Of a stretch of 54,422 nucleotides of DNA, positions 1 to 54,422 are shown one piece after another; position 1 is the first letter of the stretch, and each line of letters starts with the position of its first letter. Source of the stretch: a virus; IMG/VR virus record IMGVR_UViG_3300022745_000041, positions 1-54,422 of that record; one strand, given 5' to 3'. Under the pieces are notes generated by a model. The model saw only the letters and a list, made by a program, of their open reading frames with translations, searched no databases and was not told where the DNA came from. Position numbers and translations under genes: made by a program.

Positions 1-142
1 CTTTGCGATCCAGTCCATGTCGTGATTGCCTGCATCAACTAAATATGCCGCATGTGTTTCGCAGATCATCTCGCCATCGCAATACACTCGCGGCGATAGC
101 ACGCACACAATTGCCTCCCATTCCCCCTGCGTCGTCTTTGCG
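1..142. repeat. Terminal overlap, left copy
   Basis: These 142 bases match 54281-54422 except at positions 121, 124 and 139. All three differences fall in third codon positions of the same reading frame (Gly, Glu and Ala codons) and leave the protein unchanged. The reading frame also continues exactly across the join from position 1 to position 54280. The simplest reading is an assembly overlap of a circular or circularly permuted genome of 54,280 bp, drawn from two near-identical variants. Confidence 0.9.
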
Positions 143-183
143 AATGCCTCACGGACCTCGCTGATGTTGATTGGATCGCTCAC
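1..183 (-). CDS. Coiled-coil protein, N-terminal part (gene crosses contig ends)
   Basis: These are the first 61 codons of the protein that continues at 53486-54280. The GTG start at 183 has a strong GGAGGT ribosome-binding site and overlaps the stop of the upstream membrane-protein gene by GTGA. The ATG found further inside the right-hand copy is not the real start. Joined across the ends, the protein is 325 residues. No family is recognised for this N-terminal part. Confidence 0.8.
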   Translation of the reverse strand, partial: MSDPINISEVREAFAKTTQGEWEAIVCVLSPRVYCDGEMICETHAAYLVDAGNHDMDWIAK

Positions 184-350
184 TTCGCTACCTCCTTCCA
201 TTGCCATTGTCCGGTAGTTTGGCTGTATTCCGCGTGGCCCTGTTTGACGATTTCTTTCATCCAGGCATCCGAGCATTCCACAAATGCAAACCAAGCAACA
301 ATCAATCCCATAATTAAACCTACGACGAAACCTTCTGCTTTATCACTCAC
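180..350 (-). CDS. Small single-pass membrane protein (56 aa)
   Basis: A GTG-initiated gene. The start overlaps the stop of the gene at 347-1084 by GTGA, and its own stop overlaps the next GTG start in the same way, so three genes are tightly coupled. An AGGAGGT site lies 6 bases before the start. Residues 8-24 are hydrophobic (VVGLIMGLIVAWFAFV), followed by a charged, Trp-rich tail ending WQWKEVAK. This is the pattern of a one-pass inner-membrane protein. The function is unknown; small proteins of this type are common in phage accessory regions. Confidence 0.7.
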   Translation of the reverse strand: MSDKAEGFVVGLIMGLIVAWFAFVECSDAWMKEIVKQGHAEYSQTTGQWQWKEVAK

Positions 351-1084
351 GCCAATACCTCCTCTTCAACTTCGCACGGCCCCCACGGTTGATCGGCGGA
401 TGGTCGCCATTGGCACGATTCAAGCTCGTCGTATTTGAAGCGACGGTCATTGAACCACATGTATGCCGTGGTCCACATTGGGAATCCACGCACTGAGTCT
501 TTCATGAATTGCGGGCACGGAGCCTTGTCTAAATCATCCGCACGCAACGGGCGATTGACGGTCTTGAGCTTGCGACAGGATTTTAGCGAACCACGTATCC
601 CGCCTTGGAGATATGCCACCGGAGACGTCTCGTCGAACCCTGTAATCTCGTACCTATTTCCATCACACTCCACGCGATCCCCTACCTTTAGCACGTTGCC
701 GACAGCGTCGGTGTGCTGCGGGATGAGGCGGTATGTGTCGTTGTTTGTTAGAGAATCAGAGTCGTCGCTCCGTGAGCACCAATCGCCAGTAGTTTTGTTT
801 TTGAACTGAAACAGCCGTCCCTCTTTCACGAGCCGCTCGAACTCTTCTCGGTACTCCGGCCCGCTGAACTCGACTCCCTCAGTGATTGTCGCGGGGAGCG
901 GTCGCAGGTCACGGACGTCATCACGATCGTAAAAGTATTTTCCTTCAGTCGTGAACACGCTTAAATCACCGGTTGCGCAACCGATCACGACAACAGGAAA
1001 GTGATCATGCCTTCGCGTCACGCACACAATTTCGACTTCACTCCCACCACTCAAAAACTTCTGGCCGACTTTGATGTCTTTCAT
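347..1084 (-). CDS. Hypothetical protein (245 aa)
   Basis: No family is recognised. The N-terminus (KDIKVGQKFLSG) resembles a small beta-barrel of the SH3-like kind, and a second similar stretch occurs near the middle (VLKVGDRVECDG), so an internal repeat of a barrel domain is possible. The protein is acidic and soluble, with no signal peptide. ATG at 1084 is preferred; a GTG lies one codon upstream. An AAGGGG site precedes the start, within the end of the preceding gene. It lies at the promoter-distal end of the replication cluster, where phages often keep host-interaction genes. Confidence 0.65.
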   Translation of the reverse strand: MKDIKVGQKFLSGGSEVEIVCVTRRHDHFPVVVIGCATGDLSVFTTEGKYFYDRDDVRDLRPLPATITEGVEFSGPEYREEFERLVKEGRLFQFKNKTTGDWCSRSDDSDSLTNNDTYRLIPQHTDAVGNVLKVGDRVECDGNRYEITGFDETSPVAYLQGGIRGSLKSCRKLKTVNRPLRADDLDKAPCPQFMKDSVRGFPMWTTAYMWFNDRRFKYDELESCQWRPSADQPWGPCEVEEEVLA

Positions 1085-1088
1085 CACG

Positions 1089-1277
1089 TTATGCCCCTTT
1101 CTGTTTATTAACTACCCATTGCATCACGCCAACTTCGCACGTCTCGTGATTCTCTCGCCCGTATTCTAGTAGTTTCTTCAGATTGTTATGTAGTTGTTCG
1201 CAGTCTGACCATTTCACATAATTCAACGCGCGTTCGATCATCTGCAACTCAAGCGGCATTAATGTTAGCGTTTTCAT
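1089..1277 (-). CDS. Small hypothetical protein (62 aa)
   Basis: The ATG at 1277 overlaps the stop of the upstream Hjc-like nuclease gene (ATGA) and has a GGGGGCAGAG ribosome-binding site. The protein starts MKTLTLMPLELQMIERAL and is mostly predicted helix; residues 12-35 look amphipathic. No function is recognised. Its coupling to the nuclease gene suggests co-expression only. Confidence 0.6.
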   Translation of the reverse strand: MKTLTLMPLELQMIERALNYVKWSDCEQLHNNLKKLLEYGRENHETCEVGVMQWVVNKQKGA

Positions 1278-1618: not shown

Positions 1619-1655
1619 CACCAAACCTCCCTGTTTGCGATTTAAGCCACTTGAG

Positions 1656-1844: not shown

Positions 1845-1860
1845 AATCTCTCTTTCCTTA

Positions 1861-1974
1861 GTAAGACCACTAAAACATACTACTAAAAACAGGAGACACT
1901 CAAGACAGGGACTAAAGAACTAAAGTCTTTTTTATTATCATTAACTCTTATTATTAAAGAACTTAACTACTGTT
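1861..1974. other. AT-rich region, candidate DNA-unwinding element
   Basis: This is a markedly AT-rich stretch, including a T-run and TTATTATCATTAACTC-type sequence, with looser copies of the ACTAAAG motif near 1908-1926. It sits directly beside the ordered array of TTTAGGCC repeats. An AT-rich stretch flanked by iterons is the classical arrangement of a theta origin. The unwinding role is inferred from base composition and position. Confidence 0.5.
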
Positions 1975-2058: not shown

Positions 2059-4259
2059 TAGACCGACAACGACTGCTCTGCCAGCCGTTTGGTCCATTGG
2101 TCTCGCGAATAATACAGCACTCCGGGACGCCCACCGCTTGAGTTTTGCGGCTCAACGAACAGGCTTCCGGATTCTTGGAGCGTCGCGAGCACGTCTTTTC
2201 TTTCATTGGGTTTCAATTTCTTCAGCGGACTAGGGGAATGCAACATTTCATAACCCGTCACAATTCCCCGCTGTTCAACAAAACGTATCACCCTCAAACA
2301 ATCTCTCTCGAAATCTGACTCTGCGACATATAGGCCAACTTTCACGAGCATCATGTTCGTGAGCCAGTTAGATGTTTTGATTGCTAGGTTGACGTCGTCT
2401 AGTGTAATCGAAGGAGCATGTTGACCGCCACTCCTGGAGCACGCAAACAACAGTGCCAACTTATTGGTACGTTCTGCCGTCCGCTTCCAGATAGCGGCAC
2501 GGAAGTCGTCTTCGCCCGCCATAACCTTCTTATTGATATTGTCTCGATGTTCCGACGATCGTTCCCATGCCTCCAGCGTGTGCATCACAATCAGCGGTGT
2601 ATGTGCTTGGCCAGCCGTTCCGGCAAGGTCGCCGCTATGCGTCTTCAGGTCTAGCCAATGCGTCGCTTGGTCGAGAATGGATTGCGGCACTGATTGCTGG
2701 CTCGGTTCCTGACTGGCGACGTAGCCCCGGCCCTCGAATACCATGCACCGCCCCAGCAATCCCCCTTCGATCAACTCTCGTGTGATGTTCTCCCAAAATC
2801 CGTTCGTTGTGCATGTCCCATACAGCACAACGTTCGGGTATCGGATCGTGACTCGCTTAGTGCTGGCCAGCAATTTCGTCTTATAGAACGTTTGCGATGC
2901 CGGAAACAACGTTAGCAACTCACGCCCGACCGCCACCATGTGCGGTTGCGTCTGTGTGTTACGCATCGATACCAGCATGTGATGAATTTCGTCGATCTGA
3001 AGTAAGCAATTCGGAACTTCCGCAATGTATTTCGTGAGTCCTGAGTCTGAGCCGACATTGTCTTCGGTCAGGTCTTCTTTCTGAATCGCTGTCAGTATTT
3101 TCTTGTTCGTCATGCGTGCCGCGTCTTTACCGGCGCTGGTCTTCTCGACTCCAATCACGTAAACGTTCGGTCGTGTGTTTCGTTTATCAACAACCTTCTG
3201 ACCACAGAGTAGGCTCATCATCGCGATTGCGCCGCTCAACGCGAGTTCCGGCTGCGGGTCGTAAGCCGTGGCCAGCGTGTAATCGACGATCTCGCCAATC
3301 AGTCCTGGCGGACGGAGACAATCAGCGGGAAAGACGTTCGCGAGTTGTTTCGGATCCGGCTTGATCGGCTCAATCACTTTCGGCTGACTCAATAATCCGC
3401 TGATATCGACGTTGCTTGGCTGCTTCTCACGGTTATCAACCAGCAACCATCCTTCCGGCTTATCGCATGGTGTGGTTGCCGCTTGGTTCACTTTGCGAAC
3501 GACTTCGGATTCTGGCCAAGGAGGAAGGCAACTGAGGTTCCACTCTGTGAGATACCCCACCGCCTCCGCTTCGCTCAGATTGAATCCAGTCACGAGGCAA
3601 CGCGCCGCCCATAGCAAGCGATCGTGGCCATGCTGGCCACTAATTGAAACATCGAGCCGAGCCATATAGGAACGGATCCGTTCGTCTAACGGCGTTTGGA
3701 TTGTGTGCTGATAACTCAGTGAGCTTTTCGGAGAACTTGTTGCGGTTTGCTTTTTCTTGTGGTGTTTTGCAAATAGTCGCTGGAGTGCATCACCGGCAAC
3801 ACGTAACGCAGTCGAATCACTGATTTGGTTGCTAGTGAACGTAAAATACCGCTCATGATTGTAGACCTCGACTCCAGGCTGTTTCGATCCGTTTGTTGGC
3901 TTCTCGCCGATCTTAATTTTGTGCCATCCATTCGCTGGCCAGTCTCCTTTGCAAAAAATATGAACACCAGTTCCGCTCGGCGAAATTTCTGTGTAACTCG
4001 CGAAGTCTTCGACGATCTCTTGCGCCCAATCGGCTAACGAGCTGCCGACAATAGCCCCATCTAGGTCGATGCCGACCAATCCATCTTCTTTGCGGAACAT
4101 GAAACCGATGCGGTCGAACGCCTTCACGTCGTCAAACCGTGCCCACGTCGTCGGGTCGTTCGACCTCGCCCGCGTAATACCGTCAGCCTGAAGTGGTACT
4201 TTATTTTCATCCCAGCGCACCCAATTCGGGAGCGAGGCTAATTCTGGCGGGACGTCCAT
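2058..4259 (-). CDS. Primase-polymerase / helicase fusion (replication protein)
   Basis: A 733-residue two-domain replication protein. Residues 1-165 look like a prim-pol (AEP) domain: the metal-binding GIDLDGA motif at 63-69 and SPSGTGVH at 93-100. A helical linker (211-260, with PPWPESEVVRKVNQA) resembles the PriCT region that follows phage prim-pol domains. The C-terminal half has a Walker A-like GVEKTSAGKD at 370-379 and a Walker B-like LLQIDEI near 419-425, as in DUF3987-type primase-associated ATPases. It should prime DNA and unwind or load at the origin. No DNA polymerase gene was found, so the phage probably borrows host polymerase. The putative origin directly follows the stop codon. 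Confidence 0.85.
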   Translation of the reverse strand: MDVPPELASLPNWVRWDENKVPLQADGITRARSNDPTTWARFDDVKAFDRIGFMFRKEDGLVGIDLDGAIVGSSLADWAQEIVEDFASYTEISPSGTGVHIFCKGDWPANGWHKIKIGEKPTNGSKQPGVEVYNHERYFTFTSNQISDSTALRVAGDALQRLFAKHHKKKQTATSSPKSSLSYQHTIQTPLDERIRSYMARLDVSISGQHGHDRLLWAARCLVTGFNLSEAEAVGYLTEWNLSCLPPWPESEVVRKVNQAATTPCDKPEGWLLVDNREKQPSNVDISGLLSQPKVIEPIKPDPKQLANVFPADCLRPPGLIGEIVDYTLATAYDPQPELALSGAIAMMSLLCGQKVVDKRNTRPNVYVIGVEKTSAGKDAARMTNKKILTAIQKEDLTEDNVGSDSGLTKYIAEVPNCLLQIDEIHHMLVSMRNTQTQPHMVAVGRELLTLFPASQTFYKTKLLASTKRVTIRYPNVVLYGTCTTNGFWENITRELIEGGLLGRCMVFEGRGYVASQEPSQQSVPQSILDQATHWLDLKTHSGDLAGTAGQAHTPLIVMHTLEAWERSSEHRDNINKKVMAGEDDFRAAIWKRTAERTNKLALLFACSRSGGQHAPSITLDDVNLAIKTSNWLTNMMLVKVGLYVAESDFERDCLRVIRFVEQRGIVTGYEMLHSPSPLKKLKPNERKDVLATLQESGSLFVEPQNSSGGRPGVLYYSRDQWTKRLAEQSLSV

Positions 4260-4284: not shown

Positions 4285-5760
4285 TTATTTGCTTAATGAC
4301 ATCTGCTTAAACATCCGTTCTTGCTGCTCAGTGTCACACTGAATACGTTTCGCCTTTTCAAGCACTGTCTGAATCATCGGAACTTCGATTTCCGTGACCG
4401 GAATATGAACATTGAGCGGTCGAGTTGATCCGATTCGGTTGGAGCGTTTCACGGCTTGCCAAAACTCCTCGTAACTGTCTTGCAGACCGGAGAATACTTG
4501 TCGAGTTGCGATCTGGAGATTCAGCCCAAAACCCAGGATTTTTGGTTTGCTGATCAGGACCTTGACGCGACCCGTTTTGAAGTCATCAATCAATCGCTGG
4601 CGTTCTTCAATCGGAGTGTCGCCGTTAATGGTTGCGGCATTCGGAAACACTTTTTCCATCGACTCCTGCTCGGCGTTGTAGTGGCACCAGATCAGCGTTG
4701 ATTCGTTTGGCCACGACGCCACGAGGTTCCGAATGAACTCCGGCTTCTCGGTCGCGATGTCTTCACCTTTCGACCGCCCCTTCGCGAGTTGCGACAACTT
4801 GCCACGCTGGCCAATGCCGCCGATGCCGTTGACGAACAATCCGCCCGTGATGTTTTGAACTTCCTTGCGTTGCTCGCACGTCAATTCAATGTGGTCGATG
4901 TGAATATTGATCGGTGGAATTGTTTCGCAGTTGTCTTTCCATCCGTAGACCGCTGGATTACTGAGAAACAGGCACCAGTGAGACAGATCTCGATAGAACG
5001 GCCCGATAGCGTGCGGCTTGATCTCCCAGCGGTTCTGAGTCTCACCACGGTTCACAAAGTACCTGGCAAGAAATTCGTTGACAGTCCGAAAGTGATCGCA
5101 AAACACCGCATGATTCGCATACTCAATTCGATCATTTGGCGCAGGTGTCCCGGTCAATGCGAGCTTCCATTCCAGTCCTTTGCCGAGTTCGATCAGTCTT
5201 GTGCCCCATGCCCCGTAATGGCTCTTAAGTAAACTCGATTCATCCAGCATCAGCCCGCCAAGATTTCCGACTTCAATGTCATCGCGGATCGCTTCATAGT
5301 TCGTAATCGCGATGCCTTTCTCGTTAGTCATCCACGATTGCAGCTCAGCAGCCCGAATCTGATTGATGACGAGGTCAGGATAGAAACGTTTAGCTTCTGC
5401 TAACGTCTGTGAAATGACCATCAGCGGAGACACGATCAAGACGAGCTTGTCCGGCATCGCCTGAGCCGCTGCTTGTGCGACCTCCAATAAAATCGAAGTC
5501 TTGCCGAGTCCGCATTCCGCGAAAACCGCAAACTTCCGCTTCCGGATCGCCATTGCGACGATGTCGCGCTGGTAGTCGAATAGGTAATCAGATGGCAACC
5601 ACTCACACTGACGCTCGGCATGTTGTTCGCCGCCGATCGCTTCCGCGTATTCATCGGGAACAACGGCTGTGGTCCCCTTCCATTGGTACGTCGGCACTTT
5701 TTTCAGCCGCAGGAACTTGCGATAGTCCGCCATCGCAGACGTGTTGAAATCAAGCAACAT
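4285..5760 (-). CDS. SNF2-like DEAD-box helicase
   Basis: A 491-residue SF2 ATPase of the SNF2 type common in phages. Walker A is ECGLGKTS (82-89), motif II is LMLDESSLLKS, motif III is LTGTPAPN, and a C-terminal RecA domain ends in QAVKRSNRIGSTRP (motif VI). ATG 5760 is chosen because it overlaps the stop of the DNA methylase gene at 5750-6649 (10 bp overlap) with GAGG upstream. The tight coupling with a methylase is a frequent phage arrangement. The role is probably in replication or recombination remodelling; the exact substrate is unknown. Confidence 0.88.
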   Translation of the reverse strand: MLLDFNTSAMADYRKFLRLKKVPTYQWKGTTAVVPDEYAEAIGGEQHAERQCEWLPSDYLFDYQRDIVAMAIRKRKFAVFAECGLGKTSILLEVAQAAAQAMPDKLVLIVSPLMVISQTLAEAKRFYPDLVINQIRAAELQSWMTNEKGIAITNYEAIRDDIEVGNLGGLMLDESSLLKSHYGAWGTRLIELGKGLEWKLALTGTPAPNDRIEYANHAVFCDHFRTVNEFLARYFVNRGETQNRWEIKPHAIGPFYRDLSHWCLFLSNPAVYGWKDNCETIPPINIHIDHIELTCEQRKEVQNITGGLFVNGIGGIGQRGKLSQLAKGRSKGEDIATEKPEFIRNLVASWPNESTLIWCHYNAEQESMEKVFPNAATINGDTPIEERQRLIDDFKTGRVKVLISKPKILGFGLNLQIATRQVFSGLQDSYEEFWQAVKRSNRIGSTRPLNVHIPVTEIEVPMIQTVLEKAKRIQCDTEQQERMFKQMSLSK

Positions 5761-6649
5761 GAACGGCCTCGCTTTCAGTGTCGTCAAATAGTGTTTTCGC
5801 TTTCGTCTGGTTCTCTGCGACACTGCGCAGGTTCTTTTCGGCGGTCTTCACGTACTCATCTTTGAGTTCGCACCCGTGGAAACATCTCCCGAGCTTCAAA
5901 GCCATATAACCCTCTGATCCGATGCCAGTGAACGGCGAGAACACTAGCTCGCCCGGATTGCTGTAGAGGCGAATGCACCGCTCAATCACGTCGAGCTGAA
6001 GAGGGCAGATGTGCTTCGTATCGTCCTCGCCTTTCGTGCCTCTCACGTTGAGCGTGTTTGTTTCTCGAATATCCATCCAAGCCGCTTCCGCCCAATCAAT
6101 CCACTGATTGCGACTCACTTGTCCAGACGCATCAATCGGAGTTGCGTTCTCGCCCGGCGCACGGAACTTGATGATGTAGTCAGCGATTGTTCCCCGTTGT
6201 TTCGCTCGATCTGATTCTAGTCCCGCGAACTGCAACTCTCGTGACCGTGTCCTGATCGCTTGGGCCTGTGGGTTCTTGCGAATGCACCAATCATATTCGT
6301 AGATCAACCCAGCCCGTTCTCCGATCCGAATGTTGATTCCCCTGAAGTCACACAAGCCAACTCCGCCTGATCGCTTCATCCTTGGTATCTGGCAGACGTG
6401 GACGCAAGCAACTCGCCCTGGCTTCAGCACGCGTGCCAACGCTTTGTAAAAAAACGAAAGATGCACTTTCGCTTCTGTGCCACATGTGTCTGTGTTTCCG
6501 ATGTCCGCCTCGCTTGACGTGTAGGCATATAGCGACGGGAACGGCGGAGAAAAGACCGCCATATCTACGCTGTGTGGAATCATTTCCTCCGCCATGTGCG
6601 GAATGCAGTCTCCGTGGTGAATCGACCAATTAGTAACACTCGCAACCAT
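5750..6649 (-). CDS. DNA (N4/N6-amino) methyltransferase, beta class
   Basis: A 299-residue DNA methylase. The catalytic SPPF motif (34-37) comes first and the SAM-binding FTGIGSEG motif (240-247) comes near the end, which is the beta-class order. S-P-P-F is compatible with cytosine-N4 or adenine-N6 modification. No restriction endonuclease lies beside it, so it probably acts as an orphan methylase for anti-restriction or regulation. The start at 6649 has an AAGGAAGGGG site. It is translationally coupled to the SNF2-like helicase. The target site cannot be read from sequence. Confidence 0.88.
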   Translation of the reverse strand: MVASVTNWSIHHGDCIPHMAEEMIPHSVDMAVFSPPFPSLYAYTSSEADIGNTDTCGTEAKVHLSFFYKALARVLKPGRVACVHVCQIPRMKRSGGVGLCDFRGINIRIGERAGLIYEYDWCIRKNPQAQAIRTRSRELQFAGLESDRAKQRGTIADYIIKFRAPGENATPIDASGQVSRNQWIDWAEAAWMDIRETNTLNVRGTKGEDDTKHICPLQLDVIERCIRLYSNPGELVFSPFTGIGSEGYMALKLGRCFHGCELKDEYVKTAEKNLRSVAENQTKAKTLFDDTESEAVHVA

Positions 6650-7364: not shown

Positions 7365-7380
7365 TCCTTGAGTTAAAACG
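7365..7380. repeat. 16-bp direct repeat flanking pentapeptide cassette (copy 2)
   Basis: Identical to 6662-6677. On the minus strand it covers the last Phe codon and stop of the helicase gene plus the ribosome-binding leader of the pentapeptide gene. Confidence 0.7.
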
Positions 7381-9970
7381 GAACCTCTGCCCCAAACTGC
7401 AACCCTGCGTAATCAAACCCGCTCTCGTCATACGCTAACGCGACCGCCTCCTGTTCGTCTGCCCATGTTTCCGGAACGTCGTCAAGCTCTTGCTTGATGA
7501 TCTTGTTGAACCGGCCTTGCGGCACCACCCAAATACGATTCGCAATCGCTACGGCCCCGCGTTTCCAGAAACTAATAGCGCTATCAATTCGGGATTCGTT
7601 AAGGTCTTCTTCGAGCATGGCTTTCGATCGTTCACGCCACCATTGGTCAGCATTGCGCCGAGCAAAACCATCATGGTCTAGGCATACCCATTCGCTAATT
7701 GTCTTAACTGTCAGATTGCCGCCACCTTCTGCTAACTGGCATACATAGTCTATGCGAAGCGTGTTTGGAGCGTCAGGCGCGTTGCGTTTTTCGTGACGGC
7801 TGAACGTCGCGGACTCAACCAGATACTCTGTCGGCTCGACTTGGCTTTCAAGAATTGCTGACGTCGTGTCGGCGTTGGCTTCGTGTTTTGGTTTCGGGGG
7901 ATAGGCGAATTGACATTCCGGACAAACAACAGCGCTGATCGGAATTGCTTCTCCGCAGGCGGGACATTCCTTGGTCGGCATACCGCCGCCGGTTTCCTTC
8001 TTGGGTTTCTCTGGTGGGATTCCGTATGTTGGAGAGTCTATGGGGCCGTGACGTTTAACGTTTTCGCCGAAATCTAGGACCGCACAATCTCGCTTATCAG
8101 GATGAACTCGAAAGCCTCGCCCCACGATCTGCGCGAACAATCCCGGTGATGCTGTGGCGCGGAGAACGCAAATGCAGTCGATTTGCTTCGCGTTGAATCC
8201 GGTCGTGAGAACATCAACGTTGACGAGCCATCGCAATTGGCCGCCCTTGAATCGTTGCAGTGTGTTGGATCGTTCAATTGCTAACGTTCCGCCCGTGACC
8301 AGCCCAACGTCTTCGCCCGACAAACTGGCCAGTCTATCTGCCACATGTTCGGCATGTTTCACGCCGCTACAGAACACAAGGATTGACTTTCGGCCCGTGG
8401 CCTTTTCAATGATTTCAGCAACTGCCGCGTTAACGTTGTCGTCAGTATCGAACAGCGATTCTGCTTGTCCCGCGTCGAACTCGTGAGTTCGTGCCACGAT
8501 CTTGAGACTGCTTGTGTCAAGCTCCGACGTCATCGGCTTATTGACGATCTGGCACAGATATCCTTCGCTCATCAAACGACTAACGCTGGCCGTGTAGCAA
8601 ACTTTTGTCAGCAAGTTTTCAGGTCCGCACAGTGCGCCGGTTCCCGTGCGGAATGGAGTCGCCGTGAGTCCGCCGATAACCATGTGCGGGCACAGAGATT
8701 TCATTCCTTGGAAGAATGTACGGAATCGGCCTTCGCCATCTGGCGGCAAGAGGTGGCAATTGTGAACTAACACGCCGCCAGCAAAGTAAGAAGGGTGTCC
8801 GCTGACTTGCAGATTGTAGACAATTCGCGTGCCTTCTTGTTCGTTACGCGAATCACCTTCCAGCCAAACGAACTCAACAAAGCATCCTTCTTGATGTCCT
8901 GCTGCTTCCGGTTGCCCACATGCCCCGTTCCGTCCACTTCGATTCCAATCTTCAGTTTTTGGTTCCCGATGTCGAGCTTGTAGCAGTGCGGATATCCGTC
9001 CTTCGGCTTTAATTTCGTCGGTATCGCTACCTCTAGTTGCCAGTCCGGCCCCAAGATTTCTGCCAGTAGCGTTACTGGAACGGGAGTTGGTTTTCCGTTG
9101 CCGCCTTGAATGATCGGCTTGTGCCCTTTCCGCTTTTGCGTATCGCTGATCTTTTGTCGGACTTCCGGGCGGCTCGCTGGGTTGTCGTGGAGCTTTGCGC
9201 AGCGAATCGAGCAAAACCTCGTTCGCTCCCAGGTTCTTCGTCCCTGTATTTTCATCACCGGACTTTCTGGGGATCGGCGATAAGCCTTGGGATGAAACAT
9301 CTCGCCACATTTCAGACACAGTTTCGATATCAGCGAGATATTCGCCAACGTGTAAGGAACCAGCGGCAACCCACCCTCTTGCGGTAAAGACTGGATGATT
9401 TGAGGTACATTTGAGACGCAGTCCATTGCTTAATCCAATCGTAATAGGTTGTTTTACTGAAACACTTATGGCATCAACAACACCAACACCACTAGCGTTA
9501 TATACTACATCACCTACGCGAACGAATTCAAGACATTTATTGCCTGACGGAGTTGCGATTGGTGTGTCACCCGTAAAACATTCGTCAATTAAGCAAACAT
9601 CTCGACGTCCAAACAAATGCGACTTATCGAAACAGGACTGAATGCCCGCGAATACAACATCTTGGTCGGTATGCCGCTTGCCGAGTCCTGCGGAGTACAG
9701 CCCGACATCAACGCCCGGCATCAAGGCGCGGCACTCGTCTGCGTTCTGTTGAATCAATTCCTTCGACGGCTGTAACACCATCGCACGCCCGCCGAACGCT
9801 AAGACTTTGCGGAGCACTGCCGCTATCACGAGAGACTTCCCCGCACCGGTTGGTAAAACCACACACGGCGATTCGGTACGCATACCGGCCCATAATGCGT
9901 TAGCCGCTTCCTCTTGGTAGTACCTCAGCGTGATTGCTGATTGCTCGGAGCCGAACGGTAGCGACTGCAT
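7373..9970 (-). CDS. SF2 DEAD/DEAH-box helicase interrupted by an intein
   Basis: The precursor is 865 residues. Removing the intein (residues 131-404) leaves a 591-residue helicase. Walker A PTGAGKS is near residue 41. Motif II is rebuilt as LIDECHLLPP across the splice junction. Motif [13 protein letters not shown], motif [14 protein letters not shown] and motif [10 protein letters not shown] follow. A zinc ribbon CPACG...CPEC comes late in the protein, then a DUF7-like helical tail of unknown role. Inteins prefer such active-site motifs. Splicing is needed to restore the DEAH-type box, so the unspliced protein should be inactive. ATG 9970 follows directly on the stop of the upstream small gene (TAAATG). 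Confidence 0.9.
8759..9580 (-). mobile_element. Intein in helicase motif II (274 aa)
   Basis: The intein starts at Cys1 (codon 9580-9578, [13 protein letters not shown], block A). It has a block B with [12 protein letters not shown], a block F-like [18 protein letters not shown], and block G VLVHN with penultimate His and terminal Asn (codon 8761-8759). The next extein residue is Cys, as required for the canonical splicing reaction. Between blocks B and F the intein frame reads as a polar, low-complexity stretch (residues about 80-235) and contains no LAGLIDADG motif. That region is where a second frame encodes the homing endonuclease. Confidence 0.92.
8767..9426 (-). CDS. Homing endonuclease (Zn finger / NUMOD3 / Vsr-like) nested out of frame in the intein
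   Basis: A 219-residue protein wholly inside the intein DNA, on the same strand but in another frame (intein codons about 52-271). It has CLKC (37-40) with FCSIRC (71-76), a probable zinc finger; a NUMOD3-like [19 protein letters not shown] (86-104); and a nuclease core LDIGN (151-155), IEVDGTGH (162-169), DIKKD (177-181) and GWKVIRVT (188-195). This is the pattern of the Vsr-like EDxHD family of homing endonucleases. The stop lies 6 bases before the last intein codon. The ribosome-binding site before ATG 9426 is weak (GGAT), so internal initiation or a later start is possible. Confidence 0.85.
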   Translation of the reverse strand: MDCVSNVPQIIQSLPQEGGLPLVPYTLANISLISKLCLKCGEMFHPKAYRRSPESPVMKIQGRRTWERTRFCSIRCAKLHDNPASRPEVRQKISDTQKRKGHKPIIQGGNGKPTPVPVTLLAEILGPDWQLEVAIPTKLKPKDGYPHCYKLDIGNQKLKIGIEVDGTGHVGNRKQQDIKKDALLSSFGWKVIRVTNKKARELSTICKSADTLLTLLAAC

Positions 9971-10555: not shown

Positions 10556-10558
10556 ATT

Positions 10559-10626
10559 GAATCGGGCGGGAGTCGAACCCGCATTGGAAGCTGTCGCTTC
10601 CGTGATACCAATTACACTACCGACTC
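10559..10626 (-). tRNA. tRNA-like element with a 6-nt anticodon loop
   Basis: It has a full 7-bp acceptor stem (GAGTCGG with CCGATTC, one G-U), TA at positions 8-9, a D arm with GG in the loop, and a perfect T arm (GCGGG-TTCGACT-CCCGC). The anticodon arm is abnormal: GGAAG-CGACAG-CTTCC has only six loop bases and lacks U33. The discriminator is A and no CCA is encoded. It may be a decayed tRNA, a tRNA needing an unusual reading, or a tRNA mimic used for RNA processing. No amino acid is assigned. Confidence 0.6.
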
Positions 10627-10633
10627 ACTTGAA

Positions 10634-41334: not shown

Positions 41335-41780
41335 GATTCATCGTCGCAGCACTGAAGATTGACGACCGTGATTCCCTTCACGCCATATCCCGGCGTCGCC
41401 ATGTATGGTTGAATCGTGATTTTGGTTAGCCCCGGTATAAGAAGCTGGCCAGCGTGGACTAATGCGAGTTGATCCCTCGCCCGCTTACAGGCAAGCAAAA
41501 AACTCTCAGGTGCCGCGCGTCCACCGTTTTCGCAGACCTCGACGACTGTTATGTCTCTCGCGATATAGTTCAGCCACGCATTGCCACGTGCTAACGTTGT
41601 GTCGTACCACTGCTGAATCGCAGCATCTATTTCTGTATCTGTTCTGAGTATTCCAGGCGTGACGTAGCGAGCGATCTCCGCCGAGGTCACGGTGTCGCCG
41701 CCGTCGCGATTAACAGCCCAATCCAAGCCCGCTAACGTGAGCCGTGATTGCAGGTCAGTGAATGAGCAGTAAGACGACAT
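41331..41780 (-). CDS. Head-tail connector, DUF1320/gp36-like (149 aa)
   Basis: Reads SSYCSFTDLQSRLTLAGLDW and then ILRTDTEIDAAIQQWYDTTL, as in the Mu gp36/DUF1320-type connectors that begin YCTxxDL and have an acidic helix. It attaches the head to the tail. ATG 41780 has its GGGG site inside the 3' strand of the tRNA-like element, so folding could mask initiation. Confidence 0.72.
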   Translation of the reverse strand: MSSYCSFTDLQSRLTLAGLDWAVNRDGGDTVTSAEIARYVTPGILRTDTEIDAAIQQWYDTTLARGNAWLNYIARDITVVEVCENGGRAAPESFLLACKRARDQLALVHAGQLLIPGLTKITIQPYMATPGYGVKGITVVNLQCCDDES

Positions 41781-41785
41781 ATAAG

Positions 41786-41857
41786 AACCCCGGCGGGACT
41801 CGAACCCACTTCTCCGCGTTAGTAGTGCGGTGTTCTGCCTGTTGAACTAGCTGGGAT
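41786..41857 (-). tRNA. Degenerate tRNA-like element
   Basis: It has a good T arm (GTGGG-TTCGAGT-CCCGC, one G-U), a D arm (GTTC-AACAGGCA-GAAC) and an anticodon arm CCGCA-CTACTAA-CGCGG. The acceptor stem pairs only 5 of 7. The loop CTACTAA would give anticodon ACT, which bacteria rarely use (A34), and the stem closes with an A-C mismatch. No CCA is encoded. It lies between capsid and connector genes, six bases from the next start codon. It may be a tRNA relic or a tRNA-shaped translational or processing signal. Confidence 0.45.
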
Positions 41858-45155: not shown

Positions 45156-45345
45156 GAAGAAAAGCTCCGCTGCTCAAGCCCTCTCGGCACTACGCTGGAA
45201 GGGCAAAACAGCGGCACAAAAGAAGGCACATAGCGAGGCGATGAATGCCGCTCGCATGGCTAAGACAACACCGGAGCAACGGGTTGCAGCGGCGAAGAAA
45301 GCGGTTGCGGCGCGGATCGCGAAGCGGAATAAAGAAGGGCGTTAA
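45148..45345 (+). CDS. Histone-H1-like basic protein (65 aa)
   Basis: Very rich in Lys, Ala and Arg (MAKKKSSAAQALSALRWKG, and AAAKKAVAARIAKRNKEG). It resembles the basic tails of bacterial H1-like proteins (HctB/AlgP type), so it is likely to bind DNA. AAAGGAG precedes ATG 45148. Its stop TAA and the stop of the convergent minus-strand gene share the bases TTAA (45342-45345). Confidence 0.75.
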   Translation: MAKKKSSAAQALSALRWKGKTAAQKKAHSEAMNAARMAKTTPEQRVAAAKKAVAARIAKRNKEGR

Positions 45346-46391
45346 GCCCCGTACTTCGCCAGCGTCTCTGGCGGCAACTGATCCACCTGCACCGCCTGAA
45401 GCTCTTTCCGCTGCCGCTTCGCTTCCGTGTACGGAGTGATCGAACAGCGGCAACTGTAGTCGTTCAGCGCCCGCTTGGCGACTGCATAGGCTTCGCTGCC
45501 AACCTCAAACAACAGGCCATCGAGTGGCCTGTGGGTTGCGCGAGTACGGGTGTCATGAGCGGAATGAAATAGCACATACGGAAACTGCGTCTTAACGACC
45601 GGCTTCTCAAGCGTCATCGTTGAACCGTGAATAAACGCTTGATGCGTCGAAGTCCGGAAGGCGTTTTGCAGTTCTGGCTTCGTCGCGTCAATTGTGTCTT
45701 TGATTCGCTTATGGAATTCTGCAAACGATTCTCCGGCTGGGAACCCAATCGCGATCTCATCACGCAAGCGTGTCACCGCTTCCAGCGATTTCCAGCGCGG
45801 CAACTGTTCGCCGCGTGCTTGCTTCTGGATTTCATCCGCGCTGTAAACGTCACGATCCATCAACCAGCGTGCCGCCGTCTCAACCCACGGGAATCGGTTC
45901 TTTTGCAGCGGCCCCAGCGCATCGAGCGTGATGAGCTTCGGTTCGCGAGACTCGCCCCACACCGCGACCGCACCAGCGATCCAGCTTGATAACTCGGATT
46001 GAGCCACCAGCTTGTCAAGTTTTTCCGCAACGAAACCGAGTGGCTGGCCAGCAACTAACGCATCTTCGATCTCTTGATAGAGTCCGTTGAGGTATCGAAT
46101 TGTTTCGTCCGCGAGTTCGTCAGCGTTAGGCGTTTCTGGCGGTGTTGGTTCGCTGTGCGGGCTGTGTGGGCGGTTGATGTTCAGCGTGGGGATGGCGTCT
46201 ATAGAGAGCGATAGTGGCCCTGTCGGTCCAATATCCCAAGCGCCGCTCCCCTTCTCGCGTAACTCGGCAAACGACCAATCGCCCCATAGTTCACCAGGCT
46301 GAACTACGTGTGACCAATCGCCTATAATTCCACCTTGCTCAATACGGGCGCGAAGCGTGACTTGGTTTTCGCTGACGGTTGCATAAATCAA
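45342..46391 (-). CDS. Minor head protein, Mu gpF-like (349 aa)
   Basis: The C-terminal half has the Mu F-type core: FRTSTHQAFIHGSTMTLEKP, FHSAHDTRTRATHRPLDG and SCRCSITPYTEAKRQRK, which form the SPP1 gp7/Mu F fold. The N-terminal half has an accessory strand region (EQGGIIGDWSHVVQPGELW). It is needed for DNA ejection or head assembly. TTG 46391 with GAAGGAGG is the start and overlaps the previous stop. It follows the portal as in Mu-like heads. Confidence 0.85.
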   Translation of the reverse strand: MIYATVSENQVTLRARIEQGGIIGDWSHVVQPGELWGDWSFAELREKGSGAWDIGPTGPLSLSIDAIPTLNINRPHSPHSEPTPPETPNADELADETIRYLNGLYQEIEDALVAGQPLGFVAEKLDKLVAQSELSSWIAGAVAVWGESREPKLITLDALGPLQKNRFPWVETAARWLMDRDVYSADEIQKQARGEQLPRWKSLEAVTRLRDEIAIGFPAGESFAEFHKRIKDTIDATKPELQNAFRTSTHQAFIHGSTMTLEKPVVKTQFPYVLFHSAHDTRTRATHRPLDGLLFEVGSEAYAVAKRALNDYSCRCSITPYTEAKRQRKELQAVQVDQLPPETLAKYGA

Positions 46392-46678: not shown

Positions 46679-47472
46679 CGTTTTCCCCGTCTTGGCTTCT
46701 GCTCTGCGGTCAGTTCTTTAATCTTCTTAACCGTGTTCGGGAAGGATATCGAGAACTCTTGAGCCGACATAGCTCCTCCACCATGTAAGGACGCAAAGCC
46801 TTCTGCGAACGCCTCGCTGTAACCGGCGTCTGAGGCGTGGAATCGACCGCTCACGGCATTGCGTGCCGGTTGAATGAAGTAACTCATTTTCCCGGCTTCT
46901 CCGTTTAGCGAATAGCCATCGGCCTCAAATTTACTTCCGCTGCCGTGCATGATCGCCAACAAATCCGCTCGATACGCGGTTCTGAAATCGTCTCGCTGCG
47001 ATATGCGATGGTCTAGGAAATTATCATCAACCGCATGACCGATTTCGTGTCGCATCACCCCGGCTGGGTCGCGTGTTTTTGTGCGTGCTGTCGATGGCCC
47101 CTCGTGCTCGGCAACAAAGGCTTGTTTAGTGTGCGGAATATACGCCGCCCCGACTTCGTGTAACGATCCGCTCCAATAACCACGAGGCTTATCGTTCATG
47201 TCGTAATGAGCTGAGAGCACATCGGACGCATCTTTTGCCGCAATCGTCTTCACGCCTTTCGACTTCAAGACGGCAGCTATATGCGGCGGAATTGACTTCA
47301 CGGCCTGGCTAGTTGCCGCAACGAATTGAGGGTTAGGGCTACCAGCACTCTCAACTCCGTGAATCGAACTGGCCGCCCGCTTCACACCCGCCTTGCTCAC
47401 CCCTCGCCGCGCATACTGATTACTCCCAATACCACCGCCCTTGCCTGTGATGCGTTGCCCCGGCTTTGTCAC
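46675..47472 (-). CDS. Lethal-factor-like (ATLF-type) metalloprotease
   Basis: A 265-residue protein with HEIGHAVDD (142-150) and SEAFAEGFA (219-227); the distance and the second Glu fit the zinc site of ATLF-type peptidases. Small phage proteins of this kind sit between portal and minor head genes. It might be an injected or capsid-associated protease. The GTG start overlaps the portal stop (GTGA). A basic glycine-rich N-terminus (KGGGIGSNQYARRG) is probably flexible. Confidence 0.75.
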   Translation of the reverse strand: MTKPGQRITGKGGGIGSNQYARRGVSKAGVKRAASSIHGVESAGSPNPQFVAATSQAVKSIPPHIAAVLKSKGVKTIAAKDASDVLSAHYDMNDKPRGYWSGSLHEVGAAYIPHTKQAFVAEHEGPSTARTKTRDPAGVMRHEIGHAVDDNFLDHRISQRDDFRTAYRADLLAIMHGSGSKFEADGYSLNGEAGKMSYFIQPARNAVSGRFHASDAGYSEAFAEGFASLHGGGAMSAQEFSISFPNTVKKIKELTAEQKPRRGKR

Positions 47473-48917
47473 GACATTACGTCGAGCACCGACCGCAGCG
47501 CGTCCGACTTTTTTTTTACAGCTAGCTCGTAAGGCTCATTCGCTTGGAACAACGGATCAGCGTTCGGACCATACTGCTGTTGTGTCTGCTCGCGCATGGC
47601 CTGCTTATCCGCCTTTACCTGCGCAAACGCAGCATCAAGCCGCTCAACATAATCACGGGCCAGTGGAACGCCAGCATTGGCCAGTATGGTCGCAACGTCG
47701 ATCGCTCCTGACTCTAGCAGCGGCCCCCATTGCGGCATTGCCATGATAGCTTTAACCGTCTCGACCATCAGGCCATCAGTGATGCGTGACGTTGGCGTTA
47801 CCGTGATTTTTGGAGGCTTGCCAGGGTAGTTCGCAGGCCCGTAGACACGATTGACGATCGCTTCAAATTGGCTCGTCAGTTGCGAGCCAAGCGAATCGCA
47901 CTTACTGAGAACAACAAACATACGCACCGTCTGTGATGCGTATGAACCTGTTTCAGTGTCCATAGTAACCGATTCGTGAACGCCGAACGCCCGCGACATC
48001 TTTGCGTCAATCAGATTGTCGATAATCTCCAACGGCTTCGCATCCAGCGATCTCGCTTCGTGCGTGATGTCGATCTGATACTTGCCCTCCATGCCCGGTG
48101 TGCTGTGTGCATCGTTGGGCAGGATCGTCAGACCGCCTGCGGTCTTGTTGGCATGGTATTGCGCTGCGATCAGCTTGTGGTTGTTGACCACTCGGCCAGT
48201 TTCATCAACCGCAGTTGCCGGAGCGTGAATTGTCGGACCATCAACGGCCCAACGCGCAACGAACACCTGGATGAGTTGATCTGTCTCTTTGCGTCGCTTG
48301 CGGACCTCAGCCGGAGCGCCTAAGAATAGCGAACGACCATGCGGTTCAAGCGGTGTGGCACTAATCGCAAACCAGCACGATTGCTCTGGCGGTATCACGA
48401 AATCTGAGCCGTCAATCGTGACTCGAATGCCACCGAACTGGCCAGAACTGTCGAGCACCAATTCCGTCGCTCGTGCTCCGTTGATGTGCTTCGGTAGCTG
48501 TTTGAACTGCTTAATGACCGTGATCGGAACGCCGCTAACCTCATCGTTTTCAATGACTAATTCAAACGGCAATCCTCCCCACGTGAACACGCCGTGTTCC
48601 GGGTCGCAGAACTTTTCGAGAGTCTCAAGCCAAAGACGATTGAGGTCGTCTTCGATCGCCTCGGCGGTTGCGTCACCTTCCGGCGCGTCAACGTTTATCG
48701 TGACATCACCACGTTTGACGCTCGATAGCAACACGTCCTGCGTAATGACCACCATCGGGTCTTTGCGCATGTCGCAGACAAGCTCCGCGAGGTCGCGAAT
48801 CGGCTCTGGCTGTACAACTCCGGCGATAACCGGATCAACGGCTTTTGCCGCATCGGCGCTAGCGGTTTGCTTGCTGCCAAACAGTCTACGGGTTGCGTCT
48901 CGGAGTTCTGCGAGCAT
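47469..48917 (-). CDS. Portal protein (DUF935/Mu gp29-like)
   Basis: A 482-residue protein with motifs shared by phage portal proteins: MRKDPMVVITQDVLLSSV, FTWGGLPFELVIEND and GRSLFLGAPAEVRKRRKETD, and SRAFGVHESVTMDTETGSY late. It forms the 12-fold ring at the head vertex. It follows the terminase cluster and is followed by the metalloprotease and minor head genes. A hairpin with the ribosome-binding site precedes ATG 48917. Confidence 0.85.
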   Translation of the reverse strand: MLAELRDATRRLFGSKQTASADAAKAVDPVIAGVVQPEPIRDLAELVCDMRKDPMVVITQDVLLSSVKRGDVTINVDAPEGDATAEAIEDDLNRLWLETLEKFCDPEHGVFTWGGLPFELVIENDEVSGVPITVIKQFKQLPKHINGARATELVLDSSGQFGGIRVTIDGSDFVIPPEQSCWFAISATPLEPHGRSLFLGAPAEVRKRRKETDQLIQVFVARWAVDGPTIHAPATAVDETGRVVNNHKLIAAQYHANKTAGGLTILPNDAHSTPGMEGKYQIDITHEARSLDAKPLEIIDNLIDAKMSRAFGVHESVTMDTETGSYASQTVRMFVVLSKCDSLGSQLTSQFEAIVNRVYGPANYPGKPPKITVTPTSRITDGLMVETVKAIMAMPQWGPLLESGAIDVATILANAGVPLARDYVERLDAAFAQVKADKQAMREQTQQQYGPNADPLFQANEPYELAVKKKSDALRSVLDVMS

Positions 48918-49782: not shown

Positions 49783-51141
49783 TCATGCTCCTGTGTGCCA
49801 CGTGACCGGCCCTGACTGCATCACCAGCTTATTGTAAGCACCGCTTGCAGCGTCGGCTTGATCATCATGAACTCCGCTCCAACACTGCGTGAGTTCGTCT
49901 ATGAAAGCACGATTCCACGGTGCCCGCAATAGGCGGACTTGCTTTTGCTCAGTCCTGGCCTGTAGCGGACGTGCGCGAATGCTTTTCTCTTTGCTCATCG
50001 TCTCTACACGACAGCCATACTTGGCCCACCGCATGACGTTAATTTCTCCGACCGTCTTTCCAGCCCCTCCCCCTTCACGCTCAATCCATTGTTCGCATTT
50101 CAGGCCATGCTGATCGAAGTCCCGTTTCATCGTGGCTTCAATCTGAGCGTCGCGAGTTGATGCCGTCCACTGCCCGCGAACCACGTCCAGGACGTAAACA
50201 AACCCGTCTCCGCCGTCAGCCATCAACACTCCGACCGTGTAGTCACCATCTTTGCTGCTTGCCGTGTCCCAATACCGCACAACCTTCGCAATCTTGGCGG
50301 GTTCGATATCAACAATCTGGTTAATGTCGTCATGCTTGAAGAACAGCCCGCCTTCCGGAATCGGGTTCCCCATATACATGGCGGACCAAAAGTAACTACC
50401 GAGCAACGCCTTTGTTCTCAGTAGCTTATCGAATGAATGAAGCTCCGGACACAACGCCTCGCCGCGTTCGTTAATTGCTGGCAAGAGCAACTTACGAACA
50501 GGAATCCCTTGATCCTTGCAGACCTCATGCAACTGGCCAGTGAGGTCATTCACATGCCAGCGTGTCTGCATGATGATGACCGCTGAATCTTGTTGCAGTC
50601 GCGTATATGCCGACGATAGGAACTGATTCCAGACCGTCTCGCGAACCACTGCTGAACTGGCTTGCTCGTGATTGCTATATGGATCATCGAAGATGAATAG
50701 GTTTGCCCCCTTGCCTGTCGTTGACGAACTTCCACCTGTGCTCATCTCGCCGCGATGCCCCTCCACACCCCACCAGTCTGACCGCTTCAGTGATTTACTA
50801 ACACGTAGCCCTGTCGTTTCTGACATCGACGCGAAGACGTTGCGAGCTTTCGCGCCCCAGCTTGCCGCGAAGTCGCTTGCGTAACTGTTGAGGATGACCC
50901 TCCTGTCTGGCCAAAGACTCATGAGCCAAGCGGGCGTATATTTCGACATCAATTCGCTTTTGCCGTGTTGTGGCGGAACAGATACCGTCAGAATTCGGCA
51001 ATCGTCAACGCCCATGACGGTGTCAATGATTGCGTTATTGATCGCTTGCAAGTGCGGATACGGTTTCCACTGGCCACCGCTTGCGGCTTGAGCGTAACCA
51101 GCGGGCGTTGCTATTCGGCGGACGGATTCGAGGTCAAGCAT
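49783..51141 (-). CDS. Terminase large subunit (452 aa)
   Basis: Walker A PPQHGKSE (56-63), Walker B LFIFDDPY (148-155) and the RNase H-like nuclease with RYWDTASSKDGDY (289-301) and GVHDDQADA near the end. This is the typical ATPase/nuclease that cuts and pumps the DNA. It follows the putative small subunit with the 63-residue gene between. With no cos site recognised, headful packaging fits the circular assembly, but this is inferred. Confidence 0.92.
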   Translation of the reverse strand: MLDLESVRRIATPAGYAQAASGGQWKPYPHLQAINNAIIDTVMGVDDCRILTVSVPPQHGKSELMSKYTPAWLMSLWPDRRVILNSYASDFAASWGAKARNVFASMSETTGLRVSKSLKRSDWWGVEGHRGEMSTGGSSSTTGKGANLFIFDDPYSNHEQASSAVVRETVWNQFLSSAYTRLQQDSAVIIMQTRWHVNDLTGQLHEVCKDQGIPVRKLLLPAINERGEALCPELHSFDKLLRTKALLGSYFWSAMYMGNPIPEGGLFFKHDDINQIVDIEPAKIAKVVRYWDTASSKDGDYTVGVLMADGGDGFVYVLDVVRGQWTASTRDAQIEATMKRDFDQHGLKCEQWIEREGGGAGKTVGEINVMRWAKYGCRVETMSKEKSIRARPLQARTEQKQVRLLRAPWNRAFIDELTQCWSGVHDDQADAASGAYNKLVMQSGPVTWHTGA

Positions 51142-51740: not shown

Positions 51741-51775
51741 GATGCCACCATCGTATCATGATTGCATCTTCGTGA

Positions 51776-52581: not shown

Positions 52582-52846
52582 TTGTCGGTTCCTTGTGTTG
52601 CTGGGTTGGTTTCAACTCTGGTACACAAGTTATCGGCGTGTTTGATTAGCGTCAATACCCTTTTCAAGATTCCGAACGGATTTCGGCTAACAAGTATTTG
52701 GGCCTGACGGAGTACCGCAGGCCAAAACTTGCGTTCTGCGGACAAAATCACCGTCTCTCCGATGTGTCACGACTCAACGAATCCCGCTCGTTAGTGACAT
52801 GCCAGCCAACCGCCGTCGTTCACTGTTGGCCCTCGGCGGGGTAGCT
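52582..52846 (-). promoter_or_regulatory. Promoter and hairpin gap upstream of the packaging operon
   Basis: A 265-bp gap with no convincing gene. On the minus strand it has -35 TTGACG (52650-52655) and a -10-like GATAAC (52629-52634) with a short 15-bp spacer. An imperfect 13-bp hairpin at 52692-52730 (AAGT-TTTGGGCCTG / CAGGCCAAAACTT) lies upstream. The rest shows no clear features. Confidence 0.5.
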
Positions 52847-53089
52847 TCACTTTCCGGCTGGCCGGCTCCCCAATTCTTTCTCGCACAAGATCGTCGAAAC
52901 ATCGTCAATGTGCAGGCAGTCCACCATGCAGGCGTAATCGTTCGGCGGCTGAATGACTGCGATGTTTCCGTTGCAGTAGTCGTTGCCCGGCGTCGCGCTA
53001 TGAAGGACTCCGAAGGCCACAACCTTGCCGCCGTCGAGCTTCACGATCTTGTCACCGTTCTTGGCCTCGCGGCCGTTTCTGTAGTGCAT
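52847..53089 (-). CDS. Conserved small phage protein (80 aa)
   Basis: Starts MHYRNGREAKNGDKIVKL with GGAGTTGGTG upstream. It has a recurring pattern of small phage proteins (REAKNGDKV, then GNDYCNGNIAVI). It is beta-rich. The function is unknown; the family is recognised only as widespread in phages. Confidence 0.65.
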   Translation of the reverse strand: MHYRNGREAKNGDKIVKLDGGKVVAFGVLHSATPGNDYCNGNIAVIQPPNDYACMVDCLHIDDVSTILCEKELGSRPAGK

Positions 53090-53187
53090 CACCAACTCCA
53101 TTGAACCGCAGAACAAAAAATTCAAAACGACGGGCGGTAACGTCTGTCTCGAATCGCGGGGTCGCTCGCCCGCGTTTTAATTTGGCG

Positions 53188-53482
53188 TTAGACGCAAACT
53201 GCCTCCAGCTCCTTCTGTCGCTCTTCAAGCCGTTCTTCGACGATCAACACGAACGCCTCACGAAATCGCGGCCCCAACTCCTGCAAGATGTCAGCGCTAC
53301 ATGCTCGCTGCAAATTCTTCCCGTCGCTGCCGTACCAGACGGCCCAGTCCACGAAGTCGAACCGCAATGAATTCGTCTTGCGGCCAACGTCGATAGCTTC
53401 CTTCAATCGCCTGATTTCTTGACCGAGTGCCTCGGCTCTGGCCACGATGTCTTTTCACTCTCTGAAGCTCTGCCACGTCCAT
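53188..53482 (-). pseudogene. Small coiled-coil gene with a one-base frameshift
   Basis: ATG 53482 has AAGGGG upstream and reads MDVAELQRVK. At an A4 run (plus 53453-53456) a one-base shift carries on to VARAEALGQEIRRLKEAID and the rest of the natural-looking protein (about 97 residues if joined). Removing one base restores the frame. It could be a sequencing error in a homopolymer, a real mutation, or a programmed shift; no stem-loop of the usual kind follows. Confidence 0.55.
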
Positions 53483-53485
53483 CGC

Positions 53486-54422
53486 TTAACCCCTTGCGTC
53501 TAACAATTTCTTCTTGCGGATTCGTCCATGAACCGCAAAAGAAAGGCGTTCGTTGATCGTCTTCACTTTGTGCCCCGTCGCTCGCAGCAGGTCGAGCACT
53601 TGGCCGCGTGTTTTGATGCCAAACCAGTCAGCACCCTGCATGTACCATGTGCCAGTTTCGTCAAATCCCCACAGTCTCAGATTCCCGATTTGCTCGTTGT
53701 CATTGCCTTCCGAGTGCGGATAAACATCGTCAGGCACTCGCACGCTTCCGATGCTTCGCAGCCATTCGCGAGTAACCGGCTTCGCACGCTCCGTAATCTC
53801 GGCCTTCGCTGCGGCGATGGCCTCATCACGCAGGTCAAACCAGTTCTTGCCATCAACATCATCGACAAACATACCGAAGTCTTGAATCGACACGGCCTCT
53901 AAGAGAGTTATCAACCGCTCATTCACCGGCTGCGATTGCTGCTCACAAAATGCGTCAGCGATTACTGATTCACTCCAGCCAGCGACACGGTCGAACTCTT
54001 TGGTTGCGTTGGATAGCTCCAGCTTGAGCCGCTCAACTTCTTTTGCCAGTTCGTCACGCTGACCGACCAGCATCTCCGCCACGCTTGGCCCAACCTGCGA
54101 ATAGTTGTTGCCGGTTCTGATCTCATGCAGGTCCGCAAGTCCCCTATCCGAGTCGGCGGTTATTTCCGACTCAATCGCAACAGCGGCTCGCCAGTATTCG
54201 CCAAGTTCGGCTTGTTGTTTCGCGACGGTTTCCCGCAACCGTTCAAGCTCGTCGAGCATCGCGAGATAGTCGTTGTGGACCTTTGCGATCCAGTCCATGT
54301 CGTGATTGCCTGCATCAACTAAATATGCCGCATGTGTTTCGCAGATCATCTCGCCATCGCAATACACTCGCGGCGATAGCACGCACACAATTGCCTCCCA
54401 CTCGCCCTGCGTCGTCTTCGCG
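53486..54422 (-). CDS. Coiled-coil protein, C-terminal part (gene crosses contig ends)
   Basis: Continues the gene at 1-183 (total 325 residues). The middle has several coiled-coil segments (LDELERLRETVAKQQAE, KEVERLKLELSNATKEF) and the C-terminus has a globular domain (LRLWGFDETGTWYMQGA, FAVHGRIRKKKLLDARG). No family is recognised. Bases 54281-54422 repeat the first codons. Confidence 0.7.
   Translation of the reverse strand, partial: AKTTQGEWEAIVCVLSPRVYCDGEMICETHAAYLVDAGNHDMDWIAKVHNDYLAMLDELERLRETVAKQQAELGEYWRAAVAIESEITADSDRGLADLHEIRTGNNYSQVGPSVAEMLVGQRDELAKEVERLKLELSNATKEFDRVAGWSESVIADAFCEQQSQPVNERLITLLEAVSIQDFGMFVDDVDGKNWFDLRDEAIAAAKAEITERAKPVTREWLRSIGSVRVPDDVYPHSEGNDNEQIGNLRLWGFDETGTWYMQGADWFGIKTRGQVLDLLRATGHKVKTINERLSFAVHGRIRKKKLLDARG
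54281..54422. repeat. Terminal overlap, right copy
   Basis: Matches 1-142 except for three synonymous third-position differences. See the left copy. Confidence 0.9.

Follow-up and report, generated by a model that had tools for sequence, protein, structure and literature searches.

TGGCCA in a 54-kb virus record is over-represented in the manner of a highly iterated palindrome

The virus record IMGVR_UViG_3300022745_000041 is a stand-alone record of 54,422 bp, which was analysed over its whole length and is referred to here as the window. All identified genes are carried by the minus strand, and they include a replication block with a primase, two helicases, and a DNA methyltransferase. The window is rich in the 6-bp palindrome TGGCCA, which at some sites forms the core of the octamer CTGGCCAG. 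A first-pass annotation made from the sequence had reported about 74 sites of the former and about 18 copies of the latter, and we counted 75 and 18 at the following positions.

1–54,422 (no strand): whole record, 75 TGGCCA, about one per 726 bp, genic and intergenic
TGGCCA site starts 1–25: 1318, 1530, 2608, 2864, 3269, 3513, 3625, 3634, 3936, 4708, 4808, 7023, 8326, 10281, 10690, 10818, 11232, 11897, 12381, 13052, 13110, 13478, 14342, 14990, 16162
TGGCCA site starts 26–50: 16497, 16651, 17366, 18090, 18647, 18866, 20390, 20484, 20560, 22472, 23031, 23471, 24960, 25055, 25784, 26469, 27723, 27767, 29481, 30200, 30539, 31266, 31709, 32603, 33981
TGGCCA site starts 51–75: 34061, 34901, 35124, 35399, 35616, 36244, 36864, 36997, 37567, 38804, 39376, 40019, 40664, 41446, 43037, 43950, 46045, 47678, 48439, 50534, 50908, 51071, 51612, 52036, 53439
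CTGGCCAG copies 1–9 (no strand): 2863–2870, 3935–3942, 8325–8332, 16650–16657, 18646–18653, 23470–23477, 25054–25061, 26468–26475, 30199–30206
CTGGCCAG copies 10–18 (no strand): 33980–33987, 35398–35405, 37566–37573, 39375–39382, 40018–40025, 41445–41452, 46044–46051, 48438–48445, 50533–50540

The strong over-representation against base composition that marks a highly iterated palindrome (HIP) is found for the hexamer (75 sites, 15.1 expected) as well as for the octamer (18 copies, 1.1 expected). Markov models of first and second order predict 12.5 and 20.7 copies of TGGCCA and 0.6 and 1.1 copies of CTGGCCAG. The ratios of observed to expected copies in the second-order model are 3.63 and 16.3, so that the excess withstands the check for which the first-pass annotation had named a ratio near one as the refuting outcome. 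Among the 64 six-base palindromes TGGCCA ranks first in enrichment, and depending on the control its excess over chance is about 3- to 7-fold. The enrichment in the window is thus genuine and strong, and it is specific to a single 6-bp palindrome.

The same annotation had doubted that codon use could be the cause, as the sites are spread over the genes in different frames. Both points are upheld: sites are found in all three frames and evenly through the window, and the excess is independent of codon use and reading frame, as for a HIP. When synonymous codons were shuffled within each of the 45 called genes, keeping the proteins and the per-gene codon usage, 400 shuffles yielded 20.0 ± 4.0 genic TGGCCA sites with a maximum of 32, versus 66 observed (the other 9 of the 75 sites lie outside the genes as called). 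For CTGGCCAG the shuffles gave 1.9 ± 1.3 copies in genes versus 18 observed. By frame, the genic sites number 9, 24, and 33, compared to 3.3, 8.0, and 8.7 in the shuffles, that is, each frame is raised 2.7- to 3.8-fold. Silent-site choice in each of the three frames leans to completing the palindrome. The alanine codon GCC is used at 24 of 44 positions where it completes TGGCCA (xTG-GCC-Axx) and at 18% elsewhere, the glycine codon GGC at 33 of 44 such positions (xxT-GGC-CAx) and at 37% elsewhere, and of 13 prolines that follow TGG 9 are encoded by CCA, versus 23% elsewhere. Half-site controls are flat or reversed, with GCC at 7 of 74 positions in xTG-Ala-[CGT] and GGC at 11 of 54 in xx[ACG]-Gly-CAx. 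The Markov, codon-shuffle, and silent-site tests therefore reject codon use and base composition as the cause.

A further expectation for TGGCCA was derived from the 12 non-palindromic NGGCCN contexts, and the ratio to this expectation is called here the palindrome-specific ratio. These contexts predict 11.0 sites, so that the 75 sites correspond to a 6.8-fold excess (bootstrap 3.9–13.0). The sister palindromes are depleted (AGGCCT 0 seen versus 11.3 expected, CGGCCG 1 versus 23.7, GGGCCC 0 versus 4.7; in total 1 versus 40), in line with the earlier remark that phages usually avoid such sites. Therefore, TGGCCA is enriched as a unit. Palindrome avoidance in the window is in fact very broad and concerns about half of the 6-bp palindromes, 33 of 64 falling below 0.2 of expectation; many of these, such as CAGCTG, CTGCAG, GTGCAC, TTCGAA, and GGCGCC, are wholly absent. 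The next enriched palindromes with at least 10 copies, GATATC, TGCGCA, TCGCGA, and TCATGA, reach only 1.5–1.9. Across 46 viral loci collected regardless of TGGCCA, the palindrome-specific ratio is at most 1.92, with 0.80 as the median. It could still be argued that no force acts on TGGCCA and that the excess simply follows from composition, from codon use, or from TGGCCA being exempt from palindrome avoidance, and composition does explain many CTGGCCAG-rich bacterial genomes (second-order ratio about 1). In the window, however, a 3- to 7-fold excess is left by the codon-preserving shuffles, by the silent-site tests, and also by the context model, in which the avoidance of sister palindromes is taken into account, and we regard this explanation as extremely improbable.

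The information is almost confined to the 6 bp, in the way of sites recognized by type II methyltransferases or restriction enzymes. On the flanks, C is common and A is rare at position −1, adding little information, and at −2 a purine is generally favoured before CTGG throughout the window. The outer C and the outer G of CTGGCCAG occur together 18 times, compared to 21 times if they were independent (44 × 36/75). The octamer was therefore rejected as a symmetric unit of its own. The extended form RCTGGCCAGY covers 16 of the 18 octamers and was likewise dropped, because CTGG is preceded by a purine in general in the window and the choice of one outer base does not depend on the other. For the same reasons the unit is the 6-bp TGGCCA and not the 8-mer. 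Single-base variants of TGGCCA are not enriched. Nucleoid, packaging, or partition proteins usually have longer and more degenerate sites, and ParB sites are few. This, together with the about 6 bp of information and the lack of enriched variants, speaks against the proposal that TGGCCA is bound by an abundant dimeric DNA-binding protein of this kind, for example, the phage protein with a ParB helix-turn-helix (HTH) domain match listed below, even though the sites are palindromic, dispersed, and somewhat evenly spaced. We consider such a binding function quite unlikely. Very unlikely, in our view, is also that near-sites are converted to TGGCCA by a repair of the very-short-patch kind or by some other directed bias of mutation, from which neither phage nor host would benefit. 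Some words one base away are indeed depleted (TGTCCA 1 seen versus 7.2 expected, TGGACA 8 versus 16.9, TGGCCC 2 versus 9.6, TGGCCG 11 versus 20.1), but the words that would be consumed by T:G correction show no clear depletion (TGGTCA 18 versus 15.0, TGACCA 7 versus 10.9).

Over nine equal bins the number of sites varies between 4 and 11, that is, TGGCCA is distributed evenly over the window. The spacing is mildly under-dispersed (coefficient of variation (CV) 0.795, P = 0.026) and the longest gap measures 2,215 bp (P = 0.010), both P values being modest and uncorrected for multiple testing; by contrast, TCGCGA is clustered with a CV of 1.27. The density of 1,378 sites per Mb lies within the range of about 500–2,500 per Mb, spread genome-wide, that is given for HIPs (PMC4390886). 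Selection or directed conversion acts on the whole 6-bp palindrome, in all frames and genome-wide, by way of silent positions and in a genome where other palindromes are strongly avoided.

Beside the helicase genes discussed below, the following genes, all on the minus strand, were recognized.

49783–51141 (−): terminase large subunit
47469–48917 (−): candidate Mu-type portal protein, score below the Pfam cut-off
45342–46391 (−): Mu F-like head protein
39877–40839 (−): tail tube protein
12745–13641 (−): ParB-HTH protein, with a match to the ParB HTH domain
5750–6649 (−): phage DNA methyltransferase, N6_N4_Mtase, PF01555, motif SPPF, 299 aa

The first 25 kb of the window had no match among phage records at megablast sensitivity. 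The terminase is 41% identical to that of the nearest viral contig found (L005) and 35% identical to that of Acinetobacter phages, and no relatives of the portal, primase, and capsid-position proteins were found in viral contigs. In the region 4285–6649 (−) the helicase is 72% and the methyltransferase 77% identical to proteins of one viral contig (L076), of which 21 kb were compared and which matches no other window protein tested; judged from these alignments, helicase and methyltransferase seem to form a replication module moving between unrelated phages. Synechococcus phage S-LBS1 has the order helicase–methyltransferase–helicase–VRR-NUC, which resembles that of the window. The helicase gene at 7373–9970 (−) possibly contains an intein, as an intein-splicing domain is placed at residues 164–404 between two helicase domains with a near-threshold score of 34.5 bits (cut-off 35.8). 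Two tRNA genes with odd anticodons (act and undetermined) are predicted at 41785–41857 (−) and 10557–10627 (−).

Beside the enzyme at 5750–6649 no further DNA methyltransferase was found in the phage, and no MethyltransfD12 match is present in the window. This enzyme might modify TGGCCA itself, so that sites would have accumulated for self-protection or regulation. As an N6/N4 aminomethyltransferase with the motif SPPF it belongs to the type linked to N4-methylcytosine (m4C). The reported methylation of TGGCCA is m4C (PMC10287943). Furthermore, TGGCCA is the sole GGCC palindrome that is not avoided in six contigs which carry the nearest relatives of the enzyme (33 seen versus 33.1 expected; the others 0 versus 4.0, 8 versus 27.9, and 0 versus 4.3), but it is the least avoided GGCC palindrome also in contigs which were not picked for the methyltransferase gene. 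Relatives with 65–82% identity are common in viral contigs. The aligned relatives hardly vary in the central region from motif IV to motif I, the expected seat of specificity, and hence the relatives likely share the specificity of the window enzyme. Nevertheless, they do not share the enrichment: 80 viral contigs with such relatives have 262 TGGCCA sites compared to 266 expected. Among 19 TGGCCA-rich virus records PF01555 was found in one and PF00145 in one, versus three and two among the other 29 records, although a missing methyltransferase is weak evidence, as the records can be fragments. On these comparisons the excess is unlikely to stem from the phage's own methyltransferase.

Virus contigs and genomes rich in TGGCCA were found by a pattern with three spaced copies. 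The GC-rich virus contigs among them have second-order ratios of about 3–7 and palindrome-specific ratios of 1.4–3.9 (15 in one contig, L159, with tandem copies), values which are inflated because the contigs were picked by motif. This suggests that the enrichment reaches beyond the present record. Among P2-like phages of enterobacteria (loci L418, L416, and L417), ESSI-2 has 44 and ESSI2_ev129 has 49 TGGCCA sites (expected 18.8 and 18.9), and P2 has one (expected 12). Short fragments aside, the enriched P2-like records carry a Dam-type D12 methyltransferase and P2 does not. This enzyme was dropped as a lead to TGGCCA, since its recognition loop appears similar to that of the GATC-specific Dam of Escherichia coli, and since ESSI-2 and ev129 reach a palindrome-specific ratio of just 1.0–1.4. 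In the open-access literature we found no report of a TGGCCA-enriched phage.

Given that the phage methyltransferase is an unlikely cause and that the sharply bounded 6-bp palindrome points to recognition of the methyltransferase type, we prefer, with a probability of about 0.4, the tentative explanation that TGGCCA is a HIP-like "alternate HIP" imposed by the methylation and repair environment of the host. The force on TGGCCA would then come from the host: the phage would replicate in a bacterium with methylated TGGCCA, where the sites remain uncut, and a process tied to methylation, be it methyl-directed repair or restriction of unmarked DNA, would favour keeping and gaining sites about every kb, the phage genome having reached equilibrium with this process. 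In support, orphan methyltransferases for TGGCCA exist (PMC10287943; PMC5005818, the latter predicted).

For the host survey about 1,300 genomes were scanned, a small part of bacterial diversity: 399 Burkholderiales, 292 Cyanobacteriota, 217 Actinomycetota, 217 from the order of Arsukibacterium, 136 from the order of an alpha-proteobacterial metagenome-assembled genome (these for CTGGCCAG only), and 44 reached through loci. In the window RCTGGCCAGY has a density of 294 per Mb (16 copies) and CTGGCCAG of 331 per Mb. RCTGGCCAGY reaches at most about 140 per Mb in the Burkholderiales, Cyanobacteriota, Actinomycetota, the order of Arsukibacterium, and 20 of the genomes reached through loci, and at most about 68 per Mb in the Cyanobacteriota. 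An unusual excess was seen in Arsukibacterium ikkense (L214), where 4.1 Mb contain 336 copies of RCTGGCCAGY and 5 of the reversed motif used as control. In the alpha-proteobacterial order one genome has CTGGCCAG at 384 per Mb, above the window, and another at 260 per Mb; in sequence sampled from these two, the second-order ratio was 1.3 and 1.2 and the palindrome-specific ratio 1.5 and 0.6. The density above that of the window is thus compositional.

Several results weigh against a host-imposed palindrome. The comparison of the same k-mer in candidate hosts, proposed by the first-pass annotation, yielded no host with a matching Markov-robust TGGCCA excess among the genomes scanned. The sampled CTGGCCAG-rich genomes owe their richness mostly to composition, with second-order ratios of about 0.5–1.8 and palindrome-specific ratios of 0.3–1.7, and none has the signature of the window. 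In addition, the nearest viral relative by terminase (L005) has no palindrome-specific excess (17 sites seen versus 25.3 expected). The phage lineage might instead have evolved a HIP system of its own, in which TGGCCA would be kept by selection on the phage genome, serving as a mark of its own DNA, for its protection or repair, or to set the spacing in packaging, with neither the composition of the host nor the known phage methyltransferase playing a part. This we consider unlikely as well.

HIP sequences are still without a settled function. A phage of 54 kb that shows these statistics for another palindrome is a compact system for tests, as it takes the palindrome out of the cyanobacterial chromosome and goes against the avoidance of such sites by phages. 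If methylation of TGGCCA holds true, an excess of sites would be linked to their modification in a virus, and if the host is found, the TGGCCA excess could mark phages for assignment to it.

HIP1 and the alternate HIPs of cyanobacteria occur at 500–2,500 per Mb and always together with a methyltransferase able to modify them, and methylation-dependent mismatch repair has been proposed as the maker of HIP sites (Elhai 2015, PMC4390886). The main text of that study does not mention phages, and the HIPs listed in it are GCGATCGC, GGGATCCC, TCGATCGA, GGCGCC, rCCGGy, and GCsGC. In agreement with them, TGGCCA in the window is a GC-rich palindrome, the most over-represented of its class, genome-wide, and of a density in the HIP range. 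It behaves as a HIP in every statistic tested, so that the comparison holds statistically. The likeness to HIP1 noted in the first-pass annotation thus stands as to density, spread, and palindromic nature. In contrast to the cyanobacterial HIPs, TGGCCA is found in a phage and is not among the listed alternate HIPs; none of the 292 Cyanobacteriota genomes scanned approaches the window in RCTGGCCAGY density, and the one methyltransferase of the phage is unlikely to have this specificity. The same 6-bp site is methylated at position 4 (m4C) by the orphan methyltransferase MT2 of Acinetobacter baumannii A118 (PMC10287943) and is the recognition site predicted from sequence for M.CmuRB25ORF22915P of Chania (PMC5005818). 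These enzymes have no known partner nuclease and are encoded by bacterial genes, whereas the window is without a MethyltransfD12 match. Finally, the window resembles other prokaryotic viruses in their avoidance of restriction sites (PMC6286503), as seen in 33 of its 64 six-base palindromes, whereas its TGGCCA goes the opposite way.

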